From assembly GCF_002831665.1 (NCBI RefSeq), contig NZ_CP025118.1:3348001-3412000 (forward strand): DNA of 64,000 nt, in the 5' to 3' direction. Origin of the DNA: Lacinutrix sp. Bg11-31. GTDB lineage: Bacteria; Bacteroidota; Bacteroidia; Flavobacteriales; Flavobacteriaceae. The number at the start of each line of letters is the position of its first letter. The stretch's first letter is position 1. Made by a program: the position numbers and the translations under genes. Below, piece after piece: positions 7,784 to 64,000 of this stretch. The notes below the pieces were generated by a model. That model did no database searches, had not been told where the DNA came from, and worked only from the letters and a program-made list of their open reading frames with translations.

Positions 7784-9994
7784 CTATCTTATTTTTTTTA
7801 GTTTTTCTTTTGCAATCTGTACTTTTATATGGTTCTCATCAAATTTTTCAACAAAAATATCTAATGCTTTTAAATAATAGTCTTTACCAGTGTCTAATTC
7901 TTTTTCTTTTATGAATACGTCTCCAAAAGCAATGTAAATATCTCCGAAAACATCATGTTTAGAATTAAAGAAATTATGGTTAATATTTATTGCTTTAGAT
8001 AGCATTTCTTTTGCTTGAACAAAATCTTTTTGCTCTATTTTTAAAGCAGCATAATTATAATAAATAACAGCCGTAAAAGGATGGTTTTTAGTAAATATTT
8101 CTTTGTGTAGCTTTAATGTTTTATCGAATAATGAATCTGCTTTTTTGTACTCTTTTTTACTTGTTGATATTAATCCAAGACCATTTAGGGCAACAGCATA
8201 AGGTAAAGTGGATACTAAACCAAATTCTTTATTTATTTGCACTGTCTTTTTATATAGAGAATCCGATCTATTATAGTTGCTTACATAATAGTCAACATAT
8301 GCGGCATTGTTTAGTAAGGTAGTTGAACTAGGTATTGTAAAGTTTATATATTCATTTGCTTTTTTAATTGAGGCATCAGAATGTATTTTTGCGAGCTTAT
8401 ATTTTCCTAATGTGATTTCTAACTGAGCAAGATTAGAAAGAACTTCGGGTAATTTCCAGTTATTTTCGCCAAGTGTATTATTGTATATTTCTATTACTTG
8501 ATGAAACTTTTTTTCAGAGTTATTATATTCACCTATAATATTGTCTAATTGAGCTTCGGTTTTTAAATAATTGGCGAATTTTTCGCTATTCTTTCCAAAA
8601 TTTTCAGTAGTGATTTTTATTCCTTTTTTTAACGTTTCCCTTGCTTTATCGTATTGACCAAGTACTGTTTTTACACGAGATAACATTAAATAACTTCCTG
8701 CAATATTTTGGTTTGAGGGTTCAACAAATTCTTTGTAACATGCTAAGCATTCAGAGAAAATTTCTTCTGCTTTATTAAATCTACTTAGCTTATAATAATA
8801 AATACCTTTATAGTAATTTATATTACATAAATCACTTGTAGAATTATCTACTAAATTATAAGTTTTATCAATATATAATTTAGCTTGTTCTAGGCTATCG
8901 GTTCTAAAGTGGTTTTTTATTAAGTCGCGATAGTTGTTAATTATTTTTTTCTTATTATCAGTGTTAATAGTGTCTCTTTTTAATATTACAATAGCACTTT
9001 TATAAAGTAAATTAGAATATTTATATGCGTTTTGTTCAGCAAGCGACTCTGCATAATTACTATAGAAAACAGCAGCATCACCATCAATGGTGTCTTTAAT
9101 AGATTTGTAGTTGTCTATAGCTTCTACAAATAGAGAATCTGCTAATTCATAATTTTGTAATTCTTTATAACAAATAGCTATAATGTTTTTAGAGTAGGAT
9201 TTTTCTAATTCCCAATACTCAGATTTTTTTTTATAATTATTAAGCGCATTATCTGCTTTAATGTAATAATCCAAAGCTTGTTTATACTCATGATTTTTAA
9301 AGTGATTTTTAGCATTACATCTATAAGCATCATAAAGTCCACTATAAGTTCCACTTATTTTCCAAAGTTCACTGTGATTAGATATTTCTTCCTCTGAAAT
9401 TCCAATCCAAACTTTTCCTGCGTTATTTGCTTCTATTGCATATTGTATAGCTTCGTCGCATTTATTTATATTAATAGCGTTTTTGCTTTTTTCACAATAA
9501 TCAAACATTAATATATTCTTTTGAAGATAATTATATCCATTGTTTAATGCATACAGGATAGTTCTATAGGGTTTAAAATTTATTGAAGTGTATGTGAAAA
9601 AAGTTGAAATGATTAATAATGTGAATGAGCGTAAGAGTATTAATTTAATTTTTTTAGAGCCTGAATTAGAATCCTTATTAAAAAATATATACCCTACTAA
9701 AAAGAGAAATAATAACCCATTCGCAATAGGAAGAAAATCGTAATATTCTTCTTTGTTTATTCGAATTAAAAAAGGTAAATTAAAAAGAGATATAGCAAGT
9801 GCAATTCCTGAGATTATGGATATTTCTTTTTTGTTTTCTTCTAATTTAAAAAACCAATAACCACCAATAAAATAGGAAGCAGATAATAACCATGTTGAAA
9901 GTGAAAACAATGCTCTGTTACCTGTGAAATCTATTAATAGAAGGGAAAATGAAACAGTAAAAATTATTAATATTATTTTTTCGTATAGTTTCAT
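7784..9994 (-). CDS. Membrane-anchored tetratricopeptide-repeat protein
   Basis: 736 residues. The first 150 residues contain about five hydrophobic membrane helices. From about residue 165 to the end there are roughly a dozen degenerate TPR units of 34-42 residues, recognisable by spaced Ala/Tyr/Leu patterns such as NYAESLAEQNAYKYSNLLYK and NGLGLISTSKKEYKKADSLF. The later units resemble the kinesin-light-chain style of 42-residue repeat. It probably assembles a protein complex at the inner membrane. No catalytic, histidine-kinase or DNA-binding module follows, unlike many flavobacterial TPR proteins. It is transcribed alone. Function unknown. Confidence 0.75.
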   Translation of the reverse strand: MKLYEKIILIIFTVSFSLLLIDFTGNRALFSLSTWLLSASYFIGGYWFFKLEENKKEISIISGIALAISLFNLPFLIRINKEEYYDFLPIANGLLFLFLVGYIFFNKDSNSGSKKIKLILLRSFTLLIISTFFTYTSINFKPYRTILYALNNGYNYLQKNILMFDYCEKSKNAININKCDEAIQYAIEANNAGKVWIGISEEEISNHSELWKISGTYSGLYDAYRCNAKNHFKNHEYKQALDYYIKADNALNNYKKKSEYWELEKSYSKNIIAICYKELQNYELADSLFVEAIDNYKSIKDTIDGDAAVFYSNYAESLAEQNAYKYSNLLYKSAIVILKRDTINTDNKKKIINNYRDLIKNHFRTDSLEQAKLYIDKTYNLVDNSTSDLCNINYYKGIYYYKLSRFNKAEEIFSECLACYKEFVEPSNQNIAGSYLMLSRVKTVLGQYDKARETLKKGIKITTENFGKNSEKFANYLKTEAQLDNIIGEYNNSEKKFHQVIEIYNNTLGENNWKLPEVLSNLAQLEITLGKYKLAKIHSDASIKKANEYINFTIPSSTTLLNNAAYVDYYVSNYNRSDSLYKKTVQINKEFGLVSTLPYAVALNGLGLISTSKKEYKKADSLFDKTLKLHKEIFTKNHPFTAVIYYNYAALKIEQKDFVQAKEMLSKAININHNFFNSKHDVFGDIYIAFGDVFIKEKELDTGKDYYLKALDIFVEKFDENHIKVQIAKEKLKKIR

Positions 9995-11522: not shown

Positions 11523-12380
11523 TCATTTTTTTTTCTCCTTTTTATCTCCACCTGCTACAGCAAGTTTAATGGGTAAACTATAAGATACTACAACAGGTTG
11601 CCCTTTATGTATTCCTGGTTTTATCATTTTTGGAAGCAACGCGAGAACGCGTTCTGCCTCTTTTTTGAGTTCAGGATGTGAAGCTCTTGCTTGGATTTCA
11701 ATAGCCTTTCCATTTTTGTCAATTTTAAATGTAGCATGAATTCTAACATAACCTGTTGGTAAATTTAGTTTGGTTGCTAAACCAAGGTTAAATTCAGAGC
11801 CTATATGTGCGCTAATTTTACTACTCATACATCTTCTGAGTTTCGATCTAGAAAGTTTTTCATCACAACCAGGATAAATTGGTACATTCTCTATTATGGC
11901 AAAACTGACTTCATCTGAACGATAACCATATATTGGAATTAATTTATTATTAGTTCTGTCTAGTTTGAAAAATAATCTTTTTTTAATAGTCATCATAATA
12001 GTATTCCCAGAAGAATCAACAGCAGGTTTCACTTTAGGCAACTTTTCATGAATAAGCTCATAAATTTTTAAATCTAAACCATAAATTATACTATTTTTCT
12101 GAGTACGACTTCGAATGGTTTCTCCAAAATCGTCATATCTAATTGAAGTGAATACAGAGATTGTGTCTCTTTTACTTGTAGTAATGAAATCTTCAACGGA
12201 TTTTCTATCAAGTGTATTTACTATAAAATCTTGAAGTTTCATTTCATAACAAAGCTCATTGTTTTCAACATCATCACAACCTTCAAAAATTACAAATGAT
12301 TTTCTGATTTCATAATTATTATCTTGCGAATGAATGGTTAAAGTAAATATTAGAAGGCTTATTAAAAATAGGTTTTTCAT
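11523..12380 (-). CDS. Exported protein with TonB C-terminal-like domain
   Basis: 285 residues with a signal peptide (MKNLFLISLLIFTLTIHSQ). The C-terminal third is a TonB_C-like fold. VPIYPGCDEKLSRSKLRRC resembles the linker seen before TonB_C domains in Bacteroidota, followed by GYVRIHATFKIDKNGKAI and a block ending MIKPGIHKGQPVVVSYSLPI. It lacks the N-terminal membrane anchor and proline-rich spacer of a true energy-transducing TonB, so it is more likely a periplasmic TonB-C-type module than an energiser. It ends with a lysine-rich tail. It lies 9 bases downstream of thyA on the same strand and may be cotranscribed. The exact role is unknown. Confidence 0.7.
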   Translation of the reverse strand: MKNLFLISLLIFTLTIHSQDNNYEIRKSFVIFEGCDDVENNELCYEMKLQDFIVNTLDRKSVEDFITTSKRDTISVFTSIRYDDFGETIRSRTQKNSIIYGLDLKIYELIHEKLPKVKPAVDSSGNTIMMTIKKRLFFKLDRTNNKLIPIYGYRSDEVSFAIIENVPIYPGCDEKLSRSKLRRCMSSKISAHIGSEFNLGLATKLNLPTGYVRIHATFKIDKNGKAIEIQARASHPELKKEAERVLALLPKMIKPGIHKGQPVVVSYSLPIKLAVAGGDKKEKKK

Positions 12381-12389
12381 CGTTTTAAT

Positions 12390-13214
12390 TTAAATAGCCA
12401 CAGCTCCTTTAATATGTGGATGTGGATTGTAATCTTCCAAAGTAAAATCTTCAAATTTAAAATCGAAGATATCTTTAATCTCTGGATTTAGTTTCATTTT
12501 TGGTAATGGTCTGCAATCTCGAGACAATTGTAATTCTAATTGTTCTTTATGGTTATTATAAATATGAGCATCTCCAAATGTGTGTATAAACTCACCAGCT
12601 TCGTATCCACAAACCTGAGCCATCATCATGGTAAACAAAGCGTAAGAAGCAATGTTAAAAGGTACGCCTAAGAAGATATCTGCACTACGTTGGTATAATT
12701 GGCAAGATAATTTCCCATTTGCTACATAAAACTGAAAGAACGCATGGCAAGGCGGTAAAGCCGCTTTTCCATTAGCTACATTCTCATCGAAAGATTTTGA
12801 AGTGTCTGGTAATACTGAAGGATTCCATGCAGAAACCAACATTCTACGACTATTTGGATTGTTTTTTAAAGTCTCTATAACTTCTGTTATTTGATCTACT
12901 TCGTCACTATTCCAATTACGCCATTGATGACCATAAACAGGACCTAAGTCTCCATTTTTATCTGCCCAAGAATTCCATATTTTAACACCGTTTTCGGTTA
13001 AGTAGTCAATATTAGTATCTCCTTTTAAAAACCATAGTAGTTCGTAAATAATAGATTTTAAATGTAATTTTTTTGTGGTAACCATTGGGAAACCTTCACT
13101 TAAATCGAAACGTAATTGGTAACCAAAAACACTTTTTGTTCCTGTTCCTGTTCTATCTCCTTTTTCGTTTCCGTTTTCTAAAACGTGTTTTACTAGCTCG
13201 TGGTATTGTTTCAT
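12390..13214 (-). CDS. thyA: Thymidylate synthase
   Basis: Methylates dUMP to dTMP using methylene-tetrahydrofolate, in the cytoplasm. The start is ATG 13214 (274 residues); a GTG two codons earlier would add only two residues. Arg21 in DRTGTG binds the dUMP phosphate, the nucleophile is Cys156 in [11 protein letters not shown], and [17 protein letters not shown] is the substrate loop. It carries a small insertion (around [16 protein letters not shown]) before the nucleophile compared with the E. coli enzyme. The product dihydrofolate feeds the reductase at 10054. An 18-base hairpin sits directly upstream of the start codon. Confidence 0.96.
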
Positions 13215-13220
13215 GTTCAC

Positions 13221-13238
13221 TTCCCACGAAAGTGGGAA
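13221..13238 (-). promoter_or_regulatory. Hairpin directly upstream of the thyA start codon
   Basis: TTCCCAC-GAAA-GTGGGAA: a perfect 7-bp stem with a 4-nt loop, ending six bases before the thyA ATG on the minus strand. In that orientation it is preceded by an A-run and would fold in the ribosome entry zone. It could modulate translation, or simply be one of the dispersed small palindromes seen elsewhere in the window. Confidence 0.5.
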
Positions 13239-13273
13239 TCTTTTTTAATTAACTATAATATTAATGAATTGAT

Positions 13274-13298
13274 ATTCTTCGCTGTGCTCTGAATGACA
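13274..13298. repeat. Dispersed intergenic repeat remnant
   Basis: An ATTC..GAAT-bounded palindromic stretch followed by TGACA. From memory it resembles the common Bacteroidota intergenic motif in which ATTCTTCGC is followed by a few bases and GAATGACA. Only one copy was noticed here, so the call rests on recall. Confidence 0.35.
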
Positions 13299-13342
13299 AA
13301 ACTATGTTGAATTGAAGCTCTTATTTATATTAAAATTTATCC

Positions 13343-13357
13343 GTGGCGATTCGCCAC
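13343..13357 (-). terminator. Short hairpin at the end of the nucleoside transporter gene
   Basis: GTGGCG/CGCCAC stem (13343-13348 with 13352-13357) and a 3-nt loop overlapping the stop codon of the transporter gene. On the minus strand it is followed by an AT-rich stretch without a clean T-run, so it is a weak terminator candidate. Confidence 0.4.
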
Positions 13358-15090
13358 TAGCCAATTATCATTCCAGCAATAGTAGCCGAAATTAATGAAG
13401 CAATTGTTCCTCCAATTAAGGCTTTCATTCCGAACTTAGACAATTGTTTACGTTGTCCAGGAGCTAAAGAACCAATACCACCAATTTGAATTCCTATTGA
13501 GGCAAAGTTTGCAAAACCGCATAACATATAAGTTGCCATGATTACAGATTTCTCGTAAGTTAGGTGTGTAGCGTTTGCTACATTTTTAAGTTCTGCTAAC
13601 TGTATGTATCCTATAAACTCACTTGCAGCTAATTTAATACCTAAAAGCTGACCCATTAAAGCCATGTCTTCTTTTGCAACACCTATTAACCACATTAATG
13701 GTGCGAAAATGTAACCTAGAATAAATTCTAATGATAAACTATTGTAAGGCGTGTTTGCTGCTATAACTTCGTTCAAGGAAGTAAAATGCCAATCGATATT
13801 TAATGCTTCAATTGCAAAACCATTAAATCCTGCAATTCCTCCTAAAACGCCATTAATCATTGCTATAAAAGCAACAAAAACTAGTAGCATTGCACCAACA
13901 TTTACAGCAAGCCTTAAACCTTCTGTTGTTCCGTTAGCAATGGCTTCAAGTATATTAGAGCCAATTTTTTCTTGAGATACTTTTACATCTGTATTTACTT
14001 CTTCAGTTTGAGGAAATAATATTTTAGAGATAACAATTGCACCAGGTGCAGCCATTACAGATGCTGCTAATAAATGCTTAGCGTAAAAAAGTTGTAATGC
14101 TTCGTCTTCACCTCCTAAAAACCCAATATATGCTGCTAATACAGCTCCAGCTACGGTTGCCATACCACCAATCATGACTAAGAGTATTTCGGACTTATTC
14201 ATTTTTTCTAAATACGCCTTTATTAAAAGTGGTGCTTCAGTTTGCCCTAAAAAGATGTTTCCAGCGACACTCAAGCTTTCTGCTCCAGAAATACCTAATA
14301 CTTTAGTTAGTAATAATCCCATTAGTTTTACTACTTTTTGAATAATCCCTAAATAAAATAATACAGAAGTTAAAGCTGAAAAGAATATAATTGTAGGTAG
14401 TACTTGAAAAGCGAAAATAAACCCAAAAGAAGTAACATCTAACATGCCGCCAAATAAGAACTCACTTCCTGCTTGTGTGTAGCTTAATAGTTCTATAAAA
14501 CCTTTACCTATAAATTCGAATATTGTTTTTACAAAACTAACTTTTAAAACACCTATGGCTATTATTAATTGAAGCACTAAGCCTAAACCAACAGTTTTCC
14601 AATTGATGCCTTTACGGTTACTACTAAATAAGAAGGCAACAAATAAAAGTGTAATCATTCCTAAAACACCACGCCATAGACTTCCAAGAGAAAAACCTTG
14701 ACTAGGTATTATTGAGCCCCTTTCTGGTTTTGTAGCGTCTACAACTGCAACATTCTCTTCTGTAATAGTGGTTGGTGATGTGTAATTATAGACGTTATTC
14801 TTATTCTTAATTACTAAAGTAGAATCTGTGAGTTCTGTTATTTTATAATGTCTAATAGAATTAGAAGTATCATTATGGTAAAATACCAGTAAATTATTTT
14901 GATATATATAGTCTCCTTTTACAGCTTGAATAGAATCTCCAGTAAAAGCAAATTCACCTGCATTAAGTTCTAAGTTTTTAAAATTACTTGTAGGAGATTG
15001 AGATATCCATTTTTTTTCTAAGTCTTGTCCAAAAACGGTAGTTATTCCAAAAAAAATAGCTGCGATAGCTAGTAGTAAATTTTTAATCAT
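13357..15090 (-). CDS. NupC-type concentrative nucleoside transporter with extra exported N-terminal domain
   Basis: 577 residues from ATG 15090. That start leaves four bases after the nuclease gene and gives a clean signal peptide (MIKNLLLAIAAIFFGITTVFGQ). About 110 residues of beta-rich soluble sequence follow, resembling small lipocalin-like Bacteroidota modules. From about residue 140 there is a full concentrative nucleoside transporter with some nine to ten membrane segments. FLGQTEAPLLIKAYL is the family's substrate-binding signature, and the gate domain ends in LAPGQRKQLSKFGMKALIGG. It imports nucleosides with Na+ or H+ across the inner membrane. The soluble domain should face the periplasm. 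Confidence 0.85.
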   Translation of the reverse strand: MIKNLLLAIAAIFFGITTVFGQDLEKKWISQSPTSNFKNLELNAGEFAFTGDSIQAVKGDYIYQNNLLVFYHNDTSNSIRHYKITELTDSTLVIKNKNNVYNYTSPTTITEENVAVVDATKPERGSIIPSQGFSLGSLWRGVLGMITLLFVAFLFSSNRKGINWKTVGLGLVLQLIIAIGVLKVSFVKTIFEFIGKGFIELLSYTQAGSEFLFGGMLDVTSFGFIFAFQVLPTIIFFSALTSVLFYLGIIQKVVKLMGLLLTKVLGISGAESLSVAGNIFLGQTEAPLLIKAYLEKMNKSEILLVMIGGMATVAGAVLAAYIGFLGGEDEALQLFYAKHLLAASVMAAPGAIVISKILFPQTEEVNTDVKVSQEKIGSNILEAIANGTTEGLRLAVNVGAMLLVFVAFIAMINGVLGGIAGFNGFAIEALNIDWHFTSLNEVIAANTPYNSLSLEFILGYIFAPLMWLIGVAKEDMALMGQLLGIKLAASEFIGYIQLAELKNVANATHLTYEKSVIMATYMLCGFANFASIGIQIGGIGSLAPGQRKQLSKFGMKALIGGTIASLISATIAGMIIG

Positions 15091-58231: not shown

Positions 58232-59062
58232 ATGCGATTGATTAAACAGCTTTTCGATTTTTACTTGAATAGTAGTATTCACGTGGCTTTAGCCGTCTAT
58301 GCTTTGGGCTGGATTACATTGATTGAATTTGATGTTTCTTATGATGAAAACATCCTTTATTTTATCTTTTTCGCAACCATTACAGGTTATAATTTTGTAA
58401 AGTATTTTGGGATAGCGAAGTTTCATCACAGAAGTTTAACTGATGCTTTAAAAATGATTCAAGTTTTTTCATTTGTCTGTTTTATTTTATTGTGCTATTT
58501 CGCAATGCAATTGCAATTAAAAACATCGATTTCTATTGGTGTTTTTGGGTTAATTACCTTTTTATATGCTATTCCTTTTCTACCAAAAAAGTTCTATTTA
58601 AATAATCAGCAAAACCTTCGTGATGTTAGTGGGCTAAAAGTCTATGTTATTTCATTAGTTTGGACAGGTGTTGTTGTGTTTTTACCATTAATTAATAATG
58701 ATTTTGGTATAAATGCAGATGTTTACATAACCGCATTTCAAAGATTTGTTTTTGTATTTGTTTTAATGTTGCCTTTCGAGATTAGAGATTTAGAATTCGA
58801 TAACTTAAAGCTGGCAACTATACCACAGAAAATAGGAGTGAAGTACACAAAAATAATGGGTATTTTTTTATTGCTTCTTTTATTTGTTGCTGAATTTTTT
58901 AAAGATGAATTAAGCTCTGAGAGCTTAACTAAAACTTTAATTATTGTTTTAATAACACTGTGTTTTGTAGTTTTTGCAAACAAAAAAAGGAACCGTTATT
59001 ACAGTTCCTTTTGGGTTGAAAGTATTCCAATTATATGGTTACTAATTATTTTGTTTTGCTAG
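58232..59062 (+). CDS. UbiA-like integral membrane protein with degenerate first motif
   Basis: 276 residues with about eight membrane helices, spaced as in the UbiA prenyltransferase superfamily. The second aspartate-rich motif is recognisable (FEIRDLEFDNLKLATIPQKIGVK, compare IRDIExD then LP in MenA/UbiA). The first motif, usually NDxxDxxxD, is degenerate (GYNFVKYF), so it may not bind prenyl diphosphate in the normal way or may have another function. It overlaps the convergent anti-sigma gene by 21 bases. No isoprenoid genes are nearby. Confidence 0.65.
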   Translation: MRLIKQLFDFYLNSSIHVALAVYALGWITLIEFDVSYDENILYFIFFATITGYNFVKYFGIAKFHHRSLTDALKMIQVFSFVCFILLCYFAMQLQLKTSISIGVFGLITFLYAIPFLPKKFYLNNQQNLRDVSGLKVYVISLVWTGVVVFLPLINNDFGINADVYITAFQRFVFVFVLMLPFEIRDLEFDNLKLATIPQKIGVKYTKIMGIFLLLLLFVAEFFKDELSSESLTKTLIIVLITLCFVVFANKKRNRYYSSFWVESIPIIWLLIILFC

Positions 59063-59296
59063 TTCTTTTTTGAAAGCCGACTGTAGTTTCGATTTCTCTG
59101 TAGCATCTAATTTTACAGGTTTATTTGTTACTAATTTAGTTAGTTTTGCATTTTTGCTAGAGTATTTTCGACAAGCTGCACAAAAAGCTAAATGGAAATT
59201 TAGTTTAATTTTTTCCCAAAGAGTAGCTTCTTTATATTGTGCTTTATCACATGTGTGATTTGCTTCTTCACAACTTAAATATATTTTATTACTCAT
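59042..59296 (-). CDS. Zinc-binding anti-sigma factor
   Basis: 84 residues. The motif HLAFCAACRKY is an H-x3-C-x2-C zinc site of the ZAS anti-sigma group, with an additional Cys-rich start (CEEANHTCDKAQ). No membrane segment, so it is a cytoplasmic sensor type, as in RsrA or ChrR N-terminal domains, which respond to redox or zinc. It starts one base after the sigma gene stop, a tight pair. Its end overlaps the convergent UbiA-like gene by 21 bases. Redox sensing is inferred from family. Confidence 0.8.
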   Translation of the reverse strand: MSNKIYLSCEEANHTCDKAQYKEATLWEKIKLNFHLAFCAACRKYSSKNAKLTKLVTNKPVKLDATEKSKLQSAFKKELAKQNN

Positions 59297-59297
59297 C

Positions 59298-59870
59298 TTA
59301 AAACCAATTTTTTTCTAAGCAACCAGCCATAGCAGTTCGTGCTCTGTGAATGATTACCCAAAGATTAGACGCAGTAATATTTAATTCATTACAAATAGCT
59401 TCTGTATCGTAATTTAAAATAGTCTTCATTTCGAAAACTTGTGCTTGTTTTGCTGGTAATTTATCCAAGCAATTATTTATTGCAACACCTAATTCTGTGT
59501 TTTCAATAGTGTCTTCGGCTGTTTTGTCGAAAGGATCTGCTACGCGTTCTTCTAGCCAATCGCCTTCGGTTTCTGTATCACTATTATAACTCATTCTTAC
59601 TTCGGCTTTACCTTTGTTAGAATTTGTTTTACGATAGTGATCTATAATTTTTCTTTTTAATATTGAAATAAGCCAAGTACGTTCACTTGCTTCACCTTTA
59701 AAGTTTTTCATAGACTTTAAACCTGCTAAAAATGTTTCGGAAACCAAATCTTGAGCCATATCTCTATCGTTAACACGAGAAATGGTATAGTTAAAAAGGT
59801 AGTCTGAATACAAATTAATCCATTGATTTGGATCTATTTTGTGATCTGGCATAGCTGGCAATTTTTTCAA
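59298..59870 (-). CDS. ECF RNA polymerase sigma factor
   Basis: 190 residues. Sigma region 2 spans about 16-85 (DLVSETFLAGLKSMKNF, then ERTWLISILKRKIIDHYRK) and region 4 about 130-185 (LPAKQAQVFEMKTILNYDTEAICNELNIT). The linker has an unusual acidic insertion (YNSDTETEGDWLEERVADP). Paired with the zinc anti-sigma one base downstream. It is the penultimate gene of the leftward run that starts at 63396. The start could be Met1 or Met7. Its targets are unknown. Confidence 0.9.
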   Translation of the reverse strand: MKKLPAMPDHKIDPNQWINLYSDYLFNYTISRVNDRDMAQDLVSETFLAGLKSMKNFKGEASERTWLISILKRKIIDHYRKTNSNKGKAEVRMSYNSDTETEGDWLEERVADPFDKTAEDTIENTELGVAINNCLDKLPAKQAQVFEMKTILNYDTEAICNELNITASNLWVIIHRARTAMAGCLEKNWF

Positions 59871-59897
59871 AAGTAAAGAAAAAGAATTGTTTTATTG

Positions 59898-60293
59898 CTA
59901 TTTTAAATATATCAAGAAAAACACAATGCTTAAATAAAACCATAATATTGAAAATATAATATGCATTGCGGTTTCAAATAATTTGCCTTTCCAGAGTTTG
60001 GGAGAATAAACAAAGAATTGAAAAAATAATCTTATGCTCCAAAATAGACCAAGACCAAGTGCTATTTTATTACCAAAAGGTGTGGTTAATAATTCTTGTG
60101 AGCAGGTTAGGCATAACAAGCCCATTAAGAAAACGGTAAGTGCAATAAAAAAGGTGTGAGTAGTCATCATTTGCTTATTTATTAAGCTTAAATGTTTTAA
60201 CTCTAAATGCCATTTAAAATACTTTGGAAACGGAATATGTATTACAGATAGTGTAATTAAAAGAACGCCTATTATTTTTAAATGAATGTCCAT
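59898..60293 (-). CDS. Small four-helix membrane protein
   Basis: 131 residues with four hydrophobic helices (about 5-22, 43-65, 72-93, 104-128). HPFPKYFKW-like opening (IPFPKYFKWHLELKHL) and SPKLWKGKLFETAMHIIFS between helices. No family I can name with confidence. It lies 27 bases before the sigma gene and 17 bases after the methyltransferase, so it belongs to the operon. Possibly a membrane partner of the redox sensor or of lipid modification. Confidence 0.7.
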   Translation of the reverse strand: MDIHLKIIGVLLITLSVIHIPFPKYFKWHLELKHLSLINKQMMTTHTFFIALTVFLMGLLCLTCSQELLTTPFGNKIALGLGLFWSIRLFFQFFVYSPKLWKGKLFETAMHIIFSILWFYLSIVFFLIYLK

Positions 60294-60310
60294 ACTTGCT
60301 ATTTTTTAAA

Positions 60311-61060
60311 TTAAGGCTTGTTAATAATTATAGACATAAAAGGTGTAAATTTTATGTTTTTAAATGAAGAAAAACCAGCTTTATTATAAACGGTTTTCCA
60401 TGTCTTTTTTGAGAAGAAGTGAGTAAAGCCAATAGAAAAGGCTAAAAAATTTGGGAAATCTCTTAAATGTTCTACCATAATTATTTTCCCTGTTGGTTTA
60501 CAAATACGATGGCATTCTTTTAAAAACAGAACTTTCTCAGTATTGTTTCTTATTTCATGTGCAGTCGATAATAAAAACACAATATCTGTAGCGTTGTCTT
60601 CTATAGGAATATGTTTAGTGGAGATTTGCTTTGTATTAGGGTAGGTTAAACTTACTTTTCTTGCTCTTACAATTGCTGGTTCTGTGTGCTTTTTCTGATT
60701 GTAAAAATCGAAGACTTGCAAGTTTGCTTCTGGAAATTTATTTTTTATTATAAAGCTTGTTTCGTCGAAACCAGCATTAATATTAACAATGTTTTTAGTG
60801 TGAGTATCTATATTGCAGTTTTTTAGCCAATTTAAATTGTAGTATCCAGAGTAATCATATACGTAAGCAGATATAATTAATGGCATTATAAGTCCGTAAA
60901 TAAATAATGAGATAACACTATAAAGTATGATGTTTGAACACCCAATATAGAGGAGGCTTAAAATTATAAGTGCTAATATGCTTAATCCAATAACATAGAA
61001 ATGTCTGTTAAAGCTTAAAATATTTATAACGCCTTGAAATTTTTTTCTTTCTATTTCCAT
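60311..61060 (-). CDS. Membrane-anchored methyltransferase-like protein
   Basis: 249 residues from ATG 61060 (a start at 61084 is also possible). Two membrane helices at the N-terminus (about 25-75 from the longer start), then a Rossmann domain. Motif I is NIVNINAGFDETSF, lacking the usual GxGxG, while later motifs are good (LQVFDFYNQ, TDIVFLLSTAHEIRN, LKECHRICKPTGKIIMVEHL). The weak SAM loop raises the question whether it is active. The start overlaps the DUF2071 gene by 10 bases. Probably acts on a membrane lipid if active. Confidence 0.7.
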   Translation of the reverse strand: MEIERKKFQGVINILSFNRHFYVIGLSILALIILSLLYIGCSNIILYSVISLFIYGLIMPLIISAYVYDYSGYYNLNWLKNCNIDTHTKNIVNINAGFDETSFIIKNKFPEANLQVFDFYNQKKHTEPAIVRARKVSLTYPNTKQISTKHIPIEDNATDIVFLLSTAHEIRNNTEKVLFLKECHRICKPTGKIIMVEHLRDFPNFLAFSIGFTHFFSKKTWKTVYNKAGFSSFKNIKFTPFMSIIINKP

Positions 61061-61788
61061 AATTCTATTTCTCCTTTTTTCCATTGGTATGGAATGTTTT
61101 CTATTACAAAAGCATTTGCTAAAACATGGTTTTTAAGATTTAAAGTGTTTAAGAAACCTATAGAGTAATCTTCAATTTTAATTGACTTAGGCGTCCAGTT
61201 TTGTCTTACACCTTGAATTATTAAAACTTCTTTAGTCTCTTCATTATAAGTAAAAGTAAAAGGAAGTGGGCCAGCAAAGCGTCTTGCTTCTTTCCAATTC
61301 TCGAAAGGAGAATTTAATGGCAGTTTAGCCTCTTTTTCTAAGTTGTTTAGTGATATATTAAAGTTTGAATGCTTAGAGGATATTTCAGTTTTATCTTTTG
61401 TTGTTTTTAGATTTACATCTGTAGTTGTATAATTATAGTGAGTAAAAACATTACCAATAAATGCCATTTTCTTTTTATCTGTTTCAGATTTTATTATATA
61501 TAAACCACGTAAGTTCTTGCCTTTTTTGTTGGTGTAACGTACAAATATGCGGTAACCAATTAAAAAGAAATCGTTTCCCATAAATTTAGGGAAGCCTTTA
61601 GGTCTTAAACCTGTTGTTTGTACCATTGCAACTGCAACAAAAGCCCATTTGTCTTTAAAAGTATCTAGAGCTAAACACTCTGGAATTAGGTCTTGTAATT
61701 GCTCTTTTGGTACTGCAAAAGTTAAAACTGTAGAGCTTTTAAAAAAAGCCTGTACAGCAAAAGGATGATTTTTAAGCTTTGGTAGCAT
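61051..61788 (-). CDS. DUF2071 family protein
   Basis: 245 residues. It matches the YqjF/DUF2071 family, which shares a fold with acetoacetate decarboxylase: NHPFAVQAFFKSSTVLTFAVPKEQLQDLIP, DKWAFVAVAMVQTTGLRPKGFPKFMGNDFFLIGYRIFVR (given in part), and a C-terminal half with FENWKEARRFAGPLPFTFTY. Activity is not established for the family. No signal peptide. It overlaps the DoxX-like gene by 17 bases and the methyltransferase by 10, which indicates coordinated translation. Confidence 0.85.
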   Translation of the reverse strand: MLPKLKNHPFAVQAFFKSSTVLTFAVPKEQLQDLIPECLALDTFKDKWAFVAVAMVQTTGLRPKGFPKFMGNDFFLIGYRIFVRYTNKKGKNLRGLYIIKSETDKKKMAFIGNVFTHYNYTTTDVNLKTTKDKTEISSKHSNFNISLNNLEKEAKLPLNSPFENWKEARRFAGPLPFTFTYNEETKEVLIIQGVRQNWTPKSIKIEDYSIGFLNTLNLKNHVLANAFVIENIPYQWKKGEIELWK

Positions 61789-62173
61789 GGTTGTTATTTT
61801 CTTTTTTATTAAAATGAAAGCTATTTAGGTATACTATTGCAGCAAACAATAAAGCAAAAACAATATTGAATTTATGCCACAATAGTAATTCTGGAACTAG
61901 AGTAAACTCAATAATATTCATGATTAATACTATAGCAATTTGTATTATAGCATTCCATTTTTGCTTGTATTGTGTTAATACCCAAATAGCCATACAAACC
62001 TCTGATAATCCAATAGTAATAGTTAATATTCTTGAATGTTCAGTATTTAGAATGTGTGCTATAATAGCTTCGTGTCTTGGTACTTTATTTAGTATTTTAC
62101 AATACAATCCATTTATAAGCCAAACAGAAGCTAGGATAATGGTAATCATTTTATGTAGTGTTGAACGCTTCAT
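61772..62173 (-). CDS. DoxX-like small membrane protein
   Basis: 133 residues with four hydrophobic helices. The opening HKMITIILASVWLINGLYCKILNKVPRHE and ILTITIGLSEVCMAIWVL match the DoxX-like (PF13781) group. Such proteins often occur with redox or detoxification genes. It starts 7 bases after the methyltransferase at 62181 and overlaps the DUF2071 gene by 17 bases. A DoxX-like plus DUF2071 pair is a recurrent gene neighbourhood from memory. Its role is unknown. Confidence 0.8.
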   Translation of the reverse strand: MKRSTLHKMITIILASVWLINGLYCKILNKVPRHEAIIAHILNTEHSRILTITIGLSEVCMAIWVLTQYKQKWNAIIQIAIVLIMNIIEFTLVPELLLWHKFNIVFALLFAAIVYLNSFHFNKKENNNHATKA

Positions 62174-62180
62174 TATTTGT

Positions 62181-63056
62181 CTATTTTGTGCAACTTATAA
62201 TATAATATCCAAAACTCTTCATGTGTAATCCAGATAATAATGCATAAAATGAACCTTTAAGATTATGTAAACTTTCTCTTTTTATAGAATTCAAAGCAAC
62301 TATTTTTTTTAAAATAAATCCAACGATTGCAAAAGGGACATGTAATACAGAAGGTGCAACCCTAAAAGAAATATCTTCTATTGTTATGTTTTTAAAACCT
62401 GAGCGCTCTAAATCTTTTTTTACATTATTTATTGACCCTAAATTTGTTAAGCTCCAATGGTCGCAAAGTCTACGATGCGAATAGTTTGCACCATAACATA
62501 ATTCGCTTTCTTCTTTTTTAAGAAATGCATCTGCTATTACAAAACGTCCTCCAGGTTTTAAAACACGATAAGCCTCTTGCAAAGATTCCTTTTTGTGCCC
62601 AGAATGACACAAACTCTCTATTGCTAAAGCAGAATCGAAAGTATTTGTTTGAAACGATGTGTTATTATAATTCTCATTTATAATAGTACCTTTTTTTTCT
62701 TTTAATAACGCATTGCCTTTTTTAACTTGAAAACTAGAAAGTGTGACTCCAAATGTAGTTAAGTTCTTGTGTTTTTTTAGAGCATAACGTATAGTGCCAC
62801 CAACACCACAACCCAAGTCTATTAAGTTAGATTTATCTTTAGGGATGTTTAAACGGTTTAATACTTGGTTATTCATCTCGTTAAGCATGGTGTTTCTTGC
62901 AAACGGATTGTTTTTAAAAGGAACATAATAACCAAAATGCATGTTTAAGTCTTTACTCCAAAACTCATAATCATTGGTTGCACTATCATAGAAATCTATC
63001 ATTTCTATTTTTGTTTGCTCTATTTTTTCTAAGTGATTTAGTGTTATTGCTTTCAT
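62181..63056 (-). CDS. SAM-dependent methyltransferase, sterol/tocopherol-type
   Basis: 291 residues, class I. Motif I is IDLGCGVGGTIRYAL. FYDSATNDYEFWSKDLNMHFGYY before it and AIESLCHSGHK later resemble C-24 sterol and gamma-tocopherol methyltransferases, and EAYRVLKPGGRFVIAD is a strong motif. A C-terminal hydrophobic segment (VPFAIVGFILKKIVAL) could bind membrane. It therefore likely methylates a lipid or quinone-like substrate. First recognised enzyme of the leftward operon, 25 bases after the small membrane gene and 7 bases before the DoxX-like gene. Confidence 0.85.
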   Translation of the reverse strand: MKAITLNHLEKIEQTKIEMIDFYDSATNDYEFWSKDLNMHFGYYVPFKNNPFARNTMLNEMNNQVLNRLNIPKDKSNLIDLGCGVGGTIRYALKKHKNLTTFGVTLSSFQVKKGNALLKEKKGTIINENYNNTSFQTNTFDSALAIESLCHSGHKKESLQEAYRVLKPGGRFVIADAFLKKEESELCYGANYSHRRLCDHWSLTNLGSINNVKKDLERSGFKNITIEDISFRVAPSVLHVPFAIVGFILKKIVALNSIKRESLHNLKGSFYALLSGLHMKSFGYYIISCTK

Positions 63057-63081
63057 GTTGAAAAACTTTAAAATTTTAATA

Positions 63082-63396
63082 TTATTCCGTAGTTATTATG
63101 TTTTGTTGAGGTTCTAGTTTTTGTGTATGAATAATATAAGTTAGAAAACATACTAAAAAAGCAGGTAGTAAAAAGAACCAATCGAAACCACCATTCCATA
63201 TTAAAAAGAAGAAAATTACTAATCCAAAATAAATGTAGATGAGCTTGTTTTTTGGAAATAATAGTATAAATATTATACCAGATAATACCTGTAATCCTCC
63301 TGTAATTGCTATTCCGTAAGGACCAAGTAGTACAAATAGTAAAGCAATAAAGTTTATGATTTTTGTGATTTTTGTGATTTTAAATGATAGTTTCAT
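63082..63396 (-). CDS. Small membrane protein, first gene of the GbsR-linked operon
   Basis: 104 residues with three hydrophobic helices (about 11-27, 30-48, 54-84). ATG 63396 lies 17 bases after a perfect operator-like palindrome, so it heads the leftward run of eight genes. It has no recognised family. The position right behind the operator fits a regulated membrane protein. A lysine/aromatic C-terminus (QKLEPQQNIITTE) faces the cytoplasm or periplasm. Confidence 0.7.
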   Translation of the reverse strand: MKLSFKITKITKIINFIALLFVLLGPYGIAITGGLQVLSGIIFILLFPKNKLIYIYFGLVIFFFLIWNGGFDWFFLLPAFLVCFLTYIIHTQKLEPQQNIITTE

Positions 63397-63412
63397 GATT
63401 TCTAATTATTTT

Positions 63413-63438
63413 AAACTTTCAGAAAAAATTGAAAGTTT
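63413..63438. promoter_or_regulatory. Operator-like palindrome before the eight-gene operon
   Basis: AAACTTTCA (63413-63421), an 8-base spacer, then TGAAAGTTT (63430-63438): a perfect 9-bp inverted repeat. Its left half and flanking bases (TTTTAAACTTTCAG) are shared with the site at 63979. It sits between the gbsR stop and the start of the operon, in the natural place for the promoter of 63396. Confidence 0.75.
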
Positions 63439-63451
63439 TATTTAAATTTTT

Positions 63452-63955
63452 TTATTTGAATAATTTTAGAACAGACTTAGTAATCCAGTTTTGTTTTTGG
63501 TCTACTAATTTGTTAATCATTAAATCCATAGTTTCTGTTAATTCGTGTAAAGCTTTAGTTTGTTTAATTAGTTCTTGTGTTTTTTTAGAGCCATCATCTT
63601 TAATAGATGAGACTTCACTAAGAACTTTAATTACTGGTTTAATTTCGCGTCTACTTCTTTCTTTTGCAATAACTCTTGCTAGTTCTTGCACATCTTTTTC
63701 GGTAGTAAAAAATTCTTTACGTTCTCCAGGAACCAAAGTTTTGGTTACAATTCCCCAATCCATTAACTGTCGTAAATTCATAGATGTATTACCACGAGAA
63801 ATCTTAAGGTCTTCCATGATTTCTTCCATGGATAATGACTCTGTTGAGATAAAAAGCAAAGATTGAATTTGAGCCATAGCCTTGTTTATTCCCCAAAGAG
63901 AGCCTAAACTTCCCCAAGTACTTATAAATTTGTTTTTTGCTTCTTGATATTCCAT
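63452..63955 (-). CDS. GbsR/MarR-type transcriptional regulator
   Basis: 167 residues. A winged helix-turn-helix spans about 15-90: WGSLGSLWGINKAMAQIQSLLF and EEIMEDLKISRGNTSMNLRQLMDWGIV match the GbsR branch of the MarR superfamily, then a dimerising helix tail. In Bacillus GbsR senses choline. Here no choline genes are near. It is followed by the eight-gene operon with the same orientation and palindrome, so it most likely controls that operon and itself. The ligand is unknown. Confidence 0.88.
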   Translation of the reverse strand: MEYQEAKNKFISTWGSLGSLWGINKAMAQIQSLLFISTESLSMEEIMEDLKISRGNTSMNLRQLMDWGIVTKTLVPGERKEFFTTEKDVQELARVIAKERSRREIKPVIKVLSEVSSIKDDGSKKTQELIKQTKALHELTETMDLMINKLVDQKQNWITKSVLKLFK

Positions 63956-63959
63956 ACAG

Positions 63960-63967
63960 CAAATATA
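63960..63967 (-). promoter_or_regulatory. -7 promoter element of the gbsR-like gene
   Basis: Minus-strand TATATTTG (63967-63960) matches TAnnTTTG and ends five bases before ATG 63955. Its -33 region falls in the palindrome at 63979-64000, so a bound regulator would cover the promoter. Confidence 0.5.
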
Positions 63968-63978
63968 TTAAAATTTTT

Positions 63979-64000
63979 AAACTTTCAGTAATTATTGAAA
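63979..64000. promoter_or_regulatory. Operator-like palindrome before the gbsR-like gene, cut by window end
   Basis: AAACTTTCA (63979-63987), 8-base spacer, TGAAA (63996-64000), with the final bases outside the window. Arms, spacing and left flank equal those of the site at 63413. This suggests autoregulation. Confidence 0.7.

Follow-up and report, generated by a model that had tools for sequence, protein, structure and literature searches.

Near one end of a 64,000-nucleotide stretch of the Lacinutrix sp. Bg11-31 genome (the window; the genome is a single contig of 3.67 Mb), a regulator of the GbsR group of MarR-type proteins is followed by eight co-directional genes (63396 to 59042, minus strand, as are all features below unless stated), and the question raised by this locus is which of its parts belong together and what the regulator controls. 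An earlier note on the sequence had read the eight genes as one operon, repressed by the regulator and then amplified by its own extracytoplasmic function (ECF) sigma/anti-sigma pair. All nine open reading frames (ORFs) were confirmed, and the families proposed for them (a GbsR/CudC-like MarR protein, a methyltransferase MT1, DoxX_3, DUF2071, a UbiE-like methyltransferase MT2, an ECF sigma factor and an anti-sigma factor) agree with Pfam and NCBIfam. Two further features, absent from that description, are a palindrome on either side of the regulator gene, OpD (63414-63437) and OpU, which runs off the end of the window. The conserved unit is gbsR, these two flanking palindromes and a co-directional, species-variable cargo. 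Judged from comparative sequence, the locus is probably a cis-acting regulatory chassis with interchangeable cargo, governed by an autorepressor of the GbsR type whose regulon is in essence this one locus.

Downstream of gbsR (63452..63955, 167 amino acids), a 24-bp palindrome of the form AACTTTCA-N8-TGAAAGTT, OpD (63414..63437), precedes the first cargo gene; OpU, the other copy, lies 5' of gbsR (63982..64000; the exact 20-mer, 63982-64001, ends one base past the window). Relatives were drawn from 60 of 88 GbsR genomes, the rest being already in the set or left out, and each palindrome or promoter count refers to loci with enough flank (69, 77, 78, 133, 139 or 140). The strict core TTTCA-N8-TGAAA lies no more than 70 bp from gbsR on the upstream side in 77 of 78 loci and on the downstream side in 73 of 78, where 0.0016 per searched interval would be expected. 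Among 140 deduplicated loci it was found upstream in 137 (within 90 bp of the GbsR match) and downstream likewise in 137, always 134 bp or less from the end of the match. The exact sequence CTTTCA-N8-TGAAAG has three sites in the window genome, two of which are OpU and OpD. In this genome, sites with one mismatch are uninformative, because the backward pattern gives more of them (22 versus 16). A scan for the 16-letter form, with at most one mismatch allowed, in 80 GbsR-positive genomes (of 83 intended; G027, G130 and G188 were dropped) gave zero to three sites per genome, with sites in 75 of the 80; among the matches listed, most are at the GbsR locus and seven are away from it. With so few matching sites elsewhere, the GbsR regulon is predicted to be essentially a single operon. 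The third exact site of the window genome (L175, genome position 597225), upstream of the far end of a peptidase-like ORF, is probably due to chance.

The palindromes track GbsR, and not the sigma gene (Sig) or the cargo. An exact 12-letter core is present at 17 of the 18 Sig loci that have GbsR and at 0 of the 42 that do not. A looser 10-letter core occurs seven times in the 42 GbsR-less Sig loci (602 kb) and once each in two of 18 loci where a DoxX-DUF2071-MT2-TM4 gene cassette stands alone, both close to background; no palindrome was found beside the lone cassettes by the criterion of the initial palindrome scan, nor directly upstream of Sig. Repressor-type control of the gene block, as proposed earlier, is indicated by the twin palindromes. 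Extra cores were also noticed within the cargo region of L046, L119, L123, L154, L230, L252, L258 and L260, in the first four just 5' of an inner cargo gene, which suggests that operator-gene units can be stacked; further cores at the MT2 position of L058, L060 and L108 may be chance.

The predicted promoter of gbsR is constant too. TAnnTTTG, reported as the flavobacterial sigma-A -7 element (PMC6847099, PMC9723704), falls no more than 60 bp before gbsR in 128 of 139 loci, where 8.5 would be expected; in 111 of 139 it starts exactly 12 nt before the ATG, as does TATATTTG in the window (63960..63967). Since the box is reported to span -12 to -5 in Flavobacterium johnsoniae (PMC6847099), a leaderless gbsR mRNA is predicted; for F. 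psychrophilum, 5.5% of the mapped mRNAs are given as leaderless (PMC9723704). Of the 111 loci with the -12 box, 110 have an OpU that begins at -45 to -47 and overlaps the -33 region. We propose that a GbsR-type dimer would bind both palindromes; on OpU (approximately -46 to -28 from the predicted start) it would cover the -33 region and bring gbsR under autoregulation. The cargo would most likely be transcribed by read-through from the gbsR promoter, GbsR on OpD would act as a roadblock to the polymerase, a mechanism reported for GbsR of Bacillus subtilis (PMC7396694), and a ligand would release GbsR from OpU and OpD together.

Read-through with a roadblock is preferred because no sigma-A box is found near OpD: TAnnTTTG is depleted around it (1 of 133 loci, 7.3 expected) and absent from the 45 bp that follow (0 of 133, 2.0 expected). 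The main alternative is that OpD may have its own promoter of another type, recognized by an alternative sigma factor, so that the cargo is transcribed apart from gbsR. This is somewhat unlikely: the missing sigma-A box would fit it, and a conserved AT-rich stretch with TTTAAA 5' of OpD could be part of such a promoter, but OpD is also present in loci without the neighbouring ECF gene, and there is no second strongly conserved box from OpD to the ATG of the cargo.

What lies behind OpD varies greatly. Cargo in the 140 loci forms 89 arrangement strings, or 83 without the flanking genes and 77 when the small membrane proteins are merged as well, although some loci end at contig ends and give shorter strings; no recognised cargo gene is on the opposite strand. 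Approximately ten families recur: the small membrane proteins TMsm, TMb and TMe, which form one superfamily by hhalign; TMc, found in pairs; TMd; MT1; an SDR (Epimerase plus DUF1731), which we take to be of the TIGR01777 type; a second DUF2071; a fatty acid desaturase; a DCC1-like oxidoreductase; proteins presumed to be SRPBCC-like, for which Pfam gives no match; and the DoxX-DUF2071-MT2-TM4 cassette. Scoring was against families already seen and so undercounts any others; a PEMT-like protein, just under the cut-off, and a second desaturase are two such additions. In the window, the cargo consists of TMsm (63082..63396), MT1 (62181..63056; Methyltransf_11/CMAS-like by Pfam and NCBIfam) and the cassette: a DoxX_3-like membrane protein (61772..62173), DUF2071 (61051..61788), MT2 with a hydrophobic N-terminal part (60311..61084; UbiE-like by Pfam and NCBIfam) and the four-helix protein TM4 (59898..60293), which is probably membrane-embedded. 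The intergenic gaps given previously agree with ours, except that MT2 has two candidate ATG starts (61084 or 61060) and the start of Sig has moved. The eight genes as a set are not kept together in relatives.

Cargo changes even between close relatives. On a tree of Sig, GcvP and the convergent membrane protein beside the anti-sigma gene (FastTree, 120 of 121 loci), the 77 raw arrangement strings require 93 changes, and several families change about as often as when shuffled: TMd 28 times (33.2 shuffled), TMb 19 (18.5), TMe 27 (28.7) and DoxX 14 (17.9). TMc, like MT1, SDR and SRPBCC, changes less often (24 times, 30.5 shuffled). Identical strings are shared by 14 of 91 nearest-neighbour pairs (12 of 89 with merging), and by 7 of 48 pairs above 90% identity in merged form. 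Distances correlate with those of GcvP at 0.68-0.77 for the neighbours, 0.63 for GbsR and 0.64 for TMc, and at 0.18 for TMd and 0.32 for TM4: some cargo families are inherited and others flicker. In six pairs of loci compared, DNA homology spans gbsR and OpD and breaks off near the start of the first cargo gene, at +548 to +597 counted from the start of gbsR; it returns where the two loci next share a gene, or close to the promoter of Sig. The cargo is wholly different in L042/L040, whose flanks are 93.9 and 90.8% identical, and in L104/L106, where the flanks reach 93.4 and 91.6%; L240/L228 differ in part of it. From species to species, the cargo behind OpD would be acquired, lost or exchanged; the simplest route would be homologous recombination through the conserved gbsR/OpD region on one side and, on the other, through the sigma promoter or whichever shared gene comes next. 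Different genes between homologous flanks in close relatives are also the mark of replacement flexible genomic islands, for which conserved flanks are described and homologous recombination is the proposed route (PMC4033161); unlike the islands as presented there, the present locus is one operon that follows its regulator, its small cargo is drawn from recurring families, and a conserved palindrome marks the cargo edge.

Alternatively, an ancestral large GbsR operon may have been lost piecemeal, without replacement or exchange. We consider this unlikely. It would account for the vertical signal of MT1, SDR, TMc and SRPBCC, and for what is probably a deletion scar in L043, a same-genus genome with no GbsR at that place, where a C-terminal remnant of MT1 (9859-9969, oriented) lies between the M3 peptidase gene and Sig. 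However, the same interval holds wholly different cargo in L042/L040 and L104/L106 and partly different cargo in L240/L228, gene order varies, with MT1 first or last, and lone and GbsR-linked cassettes mingle in one tree of 39 cassettes with at least four changes of label, of which the well-supported branches force only one. The cassette was found alone at 18 other places, where up to 8 kb of sequence to either side held no recognised GbsR or Sig (TM4 was not recognised in L159, and two contigs are short).

The sigma factor is better regarded as a conserved neighbour with its own predicted promoter than as a second layer of control within the GbsR unit. Its gene (59298..59855; Sigma70_r2 and Sigma70_r4) most likely starts at ATG 59855: for most relatives from outside the genus the alignment begins at residue 6 or 7. 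The TTG at 59870-59868, which had been taken as the start, is the end of a conserved -7 promoter box, TACTTTTG (59868..59875), which marks the end of the GbsR unit and lies within the 42-bp gap that now separates Sig from the upstream gene. TAnnTTTG is found within 70 bp upstream of Sig, mostly at 21-35 bp, in 65 of 69 loci with GbsR (3.7 expected in shuffles), in 24 of 34 without GbsR (1.6 expected) and in 22 of the 25 close loci without GbsR (1.1 expected); it is kept whichever gene precedes. Sig was present in 63 of 99 relatives searched. In Flavobacteriaceae the usual order is PurE, M3 peptidase, a variable interval, Sig, the anti-sigma gene (AntiS), the convergent membrane protein and GcvP, and in 15 loci the M3 peptidase gene is directly 5' of Sig. 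Among 60 Sig loci (of 64 matches; the window's own locus was counted separately, G086, G091 and G095 were left out, and nine of the 60 are outside the family), 18 have GbsR and 42 have none nearby; within the family, 33 of 51 have none.

A single eight-gene operon with repression by GbsR and amplification by its own ECF factor is therefore improbable, because Sig is so often without GbsR and has its own box. Co-directionality speaks for it, with 121 of 140 loci having a same-strand Sig downstream of GbsR (the sequence of seven others ends within 4 kb), as do the short gaps, across which read-through into Sig is possible, and an unrelated ECF gene near gbsR in L341. Nevertheless, 12 of 133 family loci with enough sequence have no same-strand Sig downstream, and window-type Sig is absent from all three GbsR loci of other families read at 14 kb, besides the lack of a palindrome directly 5' of Sig. 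In L144 and L296, two of the 12, the Sig-AntiS-GcvP block is nearby but inverted relative to GbsR. The pair has both parts of the known systems of ECF sigma and zinc-binding anti-sigma (ZAS) factors, and AntiS (59042..59296) has at residues 35-42 the sequence HLAFCAAC, an HxxxCxxC match that we take to be the zinc-anti-sigma motif and that upholds the zinc identity assigned in the earlier note; the motif is present in 127 of 175 anti-sigma matches of relatives, some of them partial. The pair is not specific to the GbsR unit, and both proteins fall below NCBIfam cut-offs (the TIGR02943-like sigma factor with 138.6 versus 162.2 bits, the anti-sigma factor with 43.9 versus 50).

The function of the cargo may be tentatively placed in lipid remodelling. 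Desaturases, CMAS-like and PEMT-like methyltransferases and many small membrane proteins suggest a membrane-lipid theme, which makes the lipid theme proposed at the outset plausible. That the cargo serves light or photo-oxidative stress, like the ChrR regulon of proteobacteria, is quite doubtful: a CMAS-like methyltransferase and a zinc-type anti-sigma factor are close by, and a putative cyclopropane fatty acid synthase of Vibrio cholerae is reported to increase in blue light (PMC5241685), but no photolyase or cryptochrome was seen in the cargo inspected, which was scored mainly against families already seen, and the anti-sigma factor is outside the GbsR unit. A role in anti-phage defence gained no convincing support from PADLOC, which for 10 proteins gave only shared-domain matches (Csa3/CARF-type regulators and PDC-M05A to GbsR, mad2 to MT1).

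The same architecture extends beyond Flavobacteriaceae. GbsR profile matches were found in 94 of 296 Bacteroidota genomes; in the best 30 loci from these 94 genomes, some of them already among the 140, the core is upstream in 26 and downstream in 24, and many have DCC, SDR, TMc, YqjF-type DUF2071 or SRPBCC cargo. In two other families of the order, three loci read at 14 kb show the arrangement palindrome, GbsR, palindrome and cargo, with neither window-type Sig nor an M3 peptidase. There is perhaps slightly less than an even chance that this is a plug-in operon found throughout the phylum: a leaderless autorepressor gene between two near-identical palindromes, with a regulon consisting of the cargo behind the second, in which control is kept by position while the cargo is replaced via recombination through the regulator gene. 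If so, any incoming gene would at once come under the same control.

Several results weigh against a chassis with freely exchanged cargo and a single-locus regulon. Vertical signal is clear for MT1 (29 changes versus 38.6 shuffled) and SDR (24 versus 38.6), whose distances correlate with GcvP at 0.55 and 0.54 (0.62 and 0.64 in close pairs), and SRPBCC is clade-bound (3 versus 24.0); simple gain and loss therefore explain part of the variation. The backward-pattern control in the 80 GbsR-positive genomes likewise has zero to two sites per genome, and in the phylum-wide set the core is missing upstream in 4 of 30 loci and downstream in 6 of 30. OpD could conceal a promoter for another type of sigma factor, the lipid role rests on the names of cargo families, and in L341, from another family, a different ECF sigma gene precedes gbsR at a distance of about 3.1 kb. 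In that locus, the interval 11981-13620 holds the ECF gene, which has no match to window Sig, and a 369-aa ORF with no Pfam match.

As a protein, GbsR of the window has a MarR-type winged helix by its HTH_5 match (1.2e-6, above the cut-off), with a MarR_2 match slightly under the 27-bit cut-off (1.4e-5, 25.6 bits). It matches the Mj223 structure 1ku9 at near full length (E 1.6e-23, profile positions 3-150), and its closest named relatives are from Lacinutrix. The model for choline-sensing CudC orthologues (NF047500) gives it 50.3 bits, far below the cut-off of 218. GbsR of B. subtilis, which acts on gbsAB and opuB, is described as a choline-sensing MarR-type repressor with a roadblock mechanism (PMC7396694), and an aromatic cage near the linker, with six phenylalanines, is reported for it (PMC6207618); residues 80-105 of the window protein, counted by themselves and not against an aligned B. 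subtilis sequence, have only two (82 and 83). The two regulators share the broad group, of which Mj223 is the best solved relative and the template for GbsR models, and an A/T-rich inverted-repeat operator placed to block elongation rather than initiation. They differ in that the half-sites are 4 bp apart in B. subtilis and the conserved half-sites here 8 bp apart, that two palindromes here flank the regulator gene itself, that the predicted regulon is essentially one locus, and that no betaine, choline or osmolyte genes were recognised in the cargo of the 140 loci, as scored against families already seen.

A survey of GbsR proteins states, in its account of Bacteroidetes and archaeal groups, that gene neighbourhoods gave no consistent picture (PMC6207618). 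The Bacteroidetes proteins of that survey probably include the present ones, for which regulator, promoter and twin palindromes are constant whereas the cargo varies within recurring families; a constant chassis with varying cargo may be a reason for the patternless neighbourhoods reported there. This poorly understood group thereby gains a candidate operator, promoter and target, and a natural experiment in which a regulator would retain control while its target genes are exchanged. Some ten poorly characterised families (including DUF2071, DoxX_3, SDR/DUF1731, DCC, small membrane proteins, MT1 and MT2) would be under one signal, and the identity of one ligand would make their role testable. 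The literature searched on flavobacterial GbsR/MarR proteins (light, sigma factor, cryptochrome) contained nothing recognised as describing this locus.

Some cargo families were followed further. TM4 has a confident four-helix model (predicted local distance difference test 92.3) with no informative structural match, and no solved relative of DUF2071 was found at E 0.1. Across the phylum, TM4 was found in 10 of 296 genomes, the nine others (L301-L309) all having DUF2071-MT2-TM4 in order, a conserved trio across Bacteroidota. Descent of the small membrane proteins from DoxX was rejected, no pair with DoxX exceeding 30% probability in hhalign. SDR genes outside the cargo position were dropped as a functional lead, a distant paralogue being present in all 50 genomes searched; there were three matches of 54-56% and one of 41%, and three of these four stronger matches are further GbsR loci in other families. 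The fourth, in L340 (genome G394), is an SDR of the cargo type between the M3 peptidase gene and Sig, at a locus that lacks both GbsR and the palindromes, as if the chassis had been lost and the cargo kept. A gene that looks rhodanese-like from its sequence separates the cargo from Sig, on the opposite strand, in L119, L124, L130, L246, L261, L269, L272 and L074 (Cellulophaga and others). In L091 (genome G002), of the same genus, the sigma match covers only residues 139-188 and the gene looks truncated. The convergent membrane protein (276 aa, 58232..59062, plus strand), with no Pfam or NCBIfam match, forms the conserved right flank of the window locus and adjoins Sig-AntiS in most Flavobacteriaceae loci examined.

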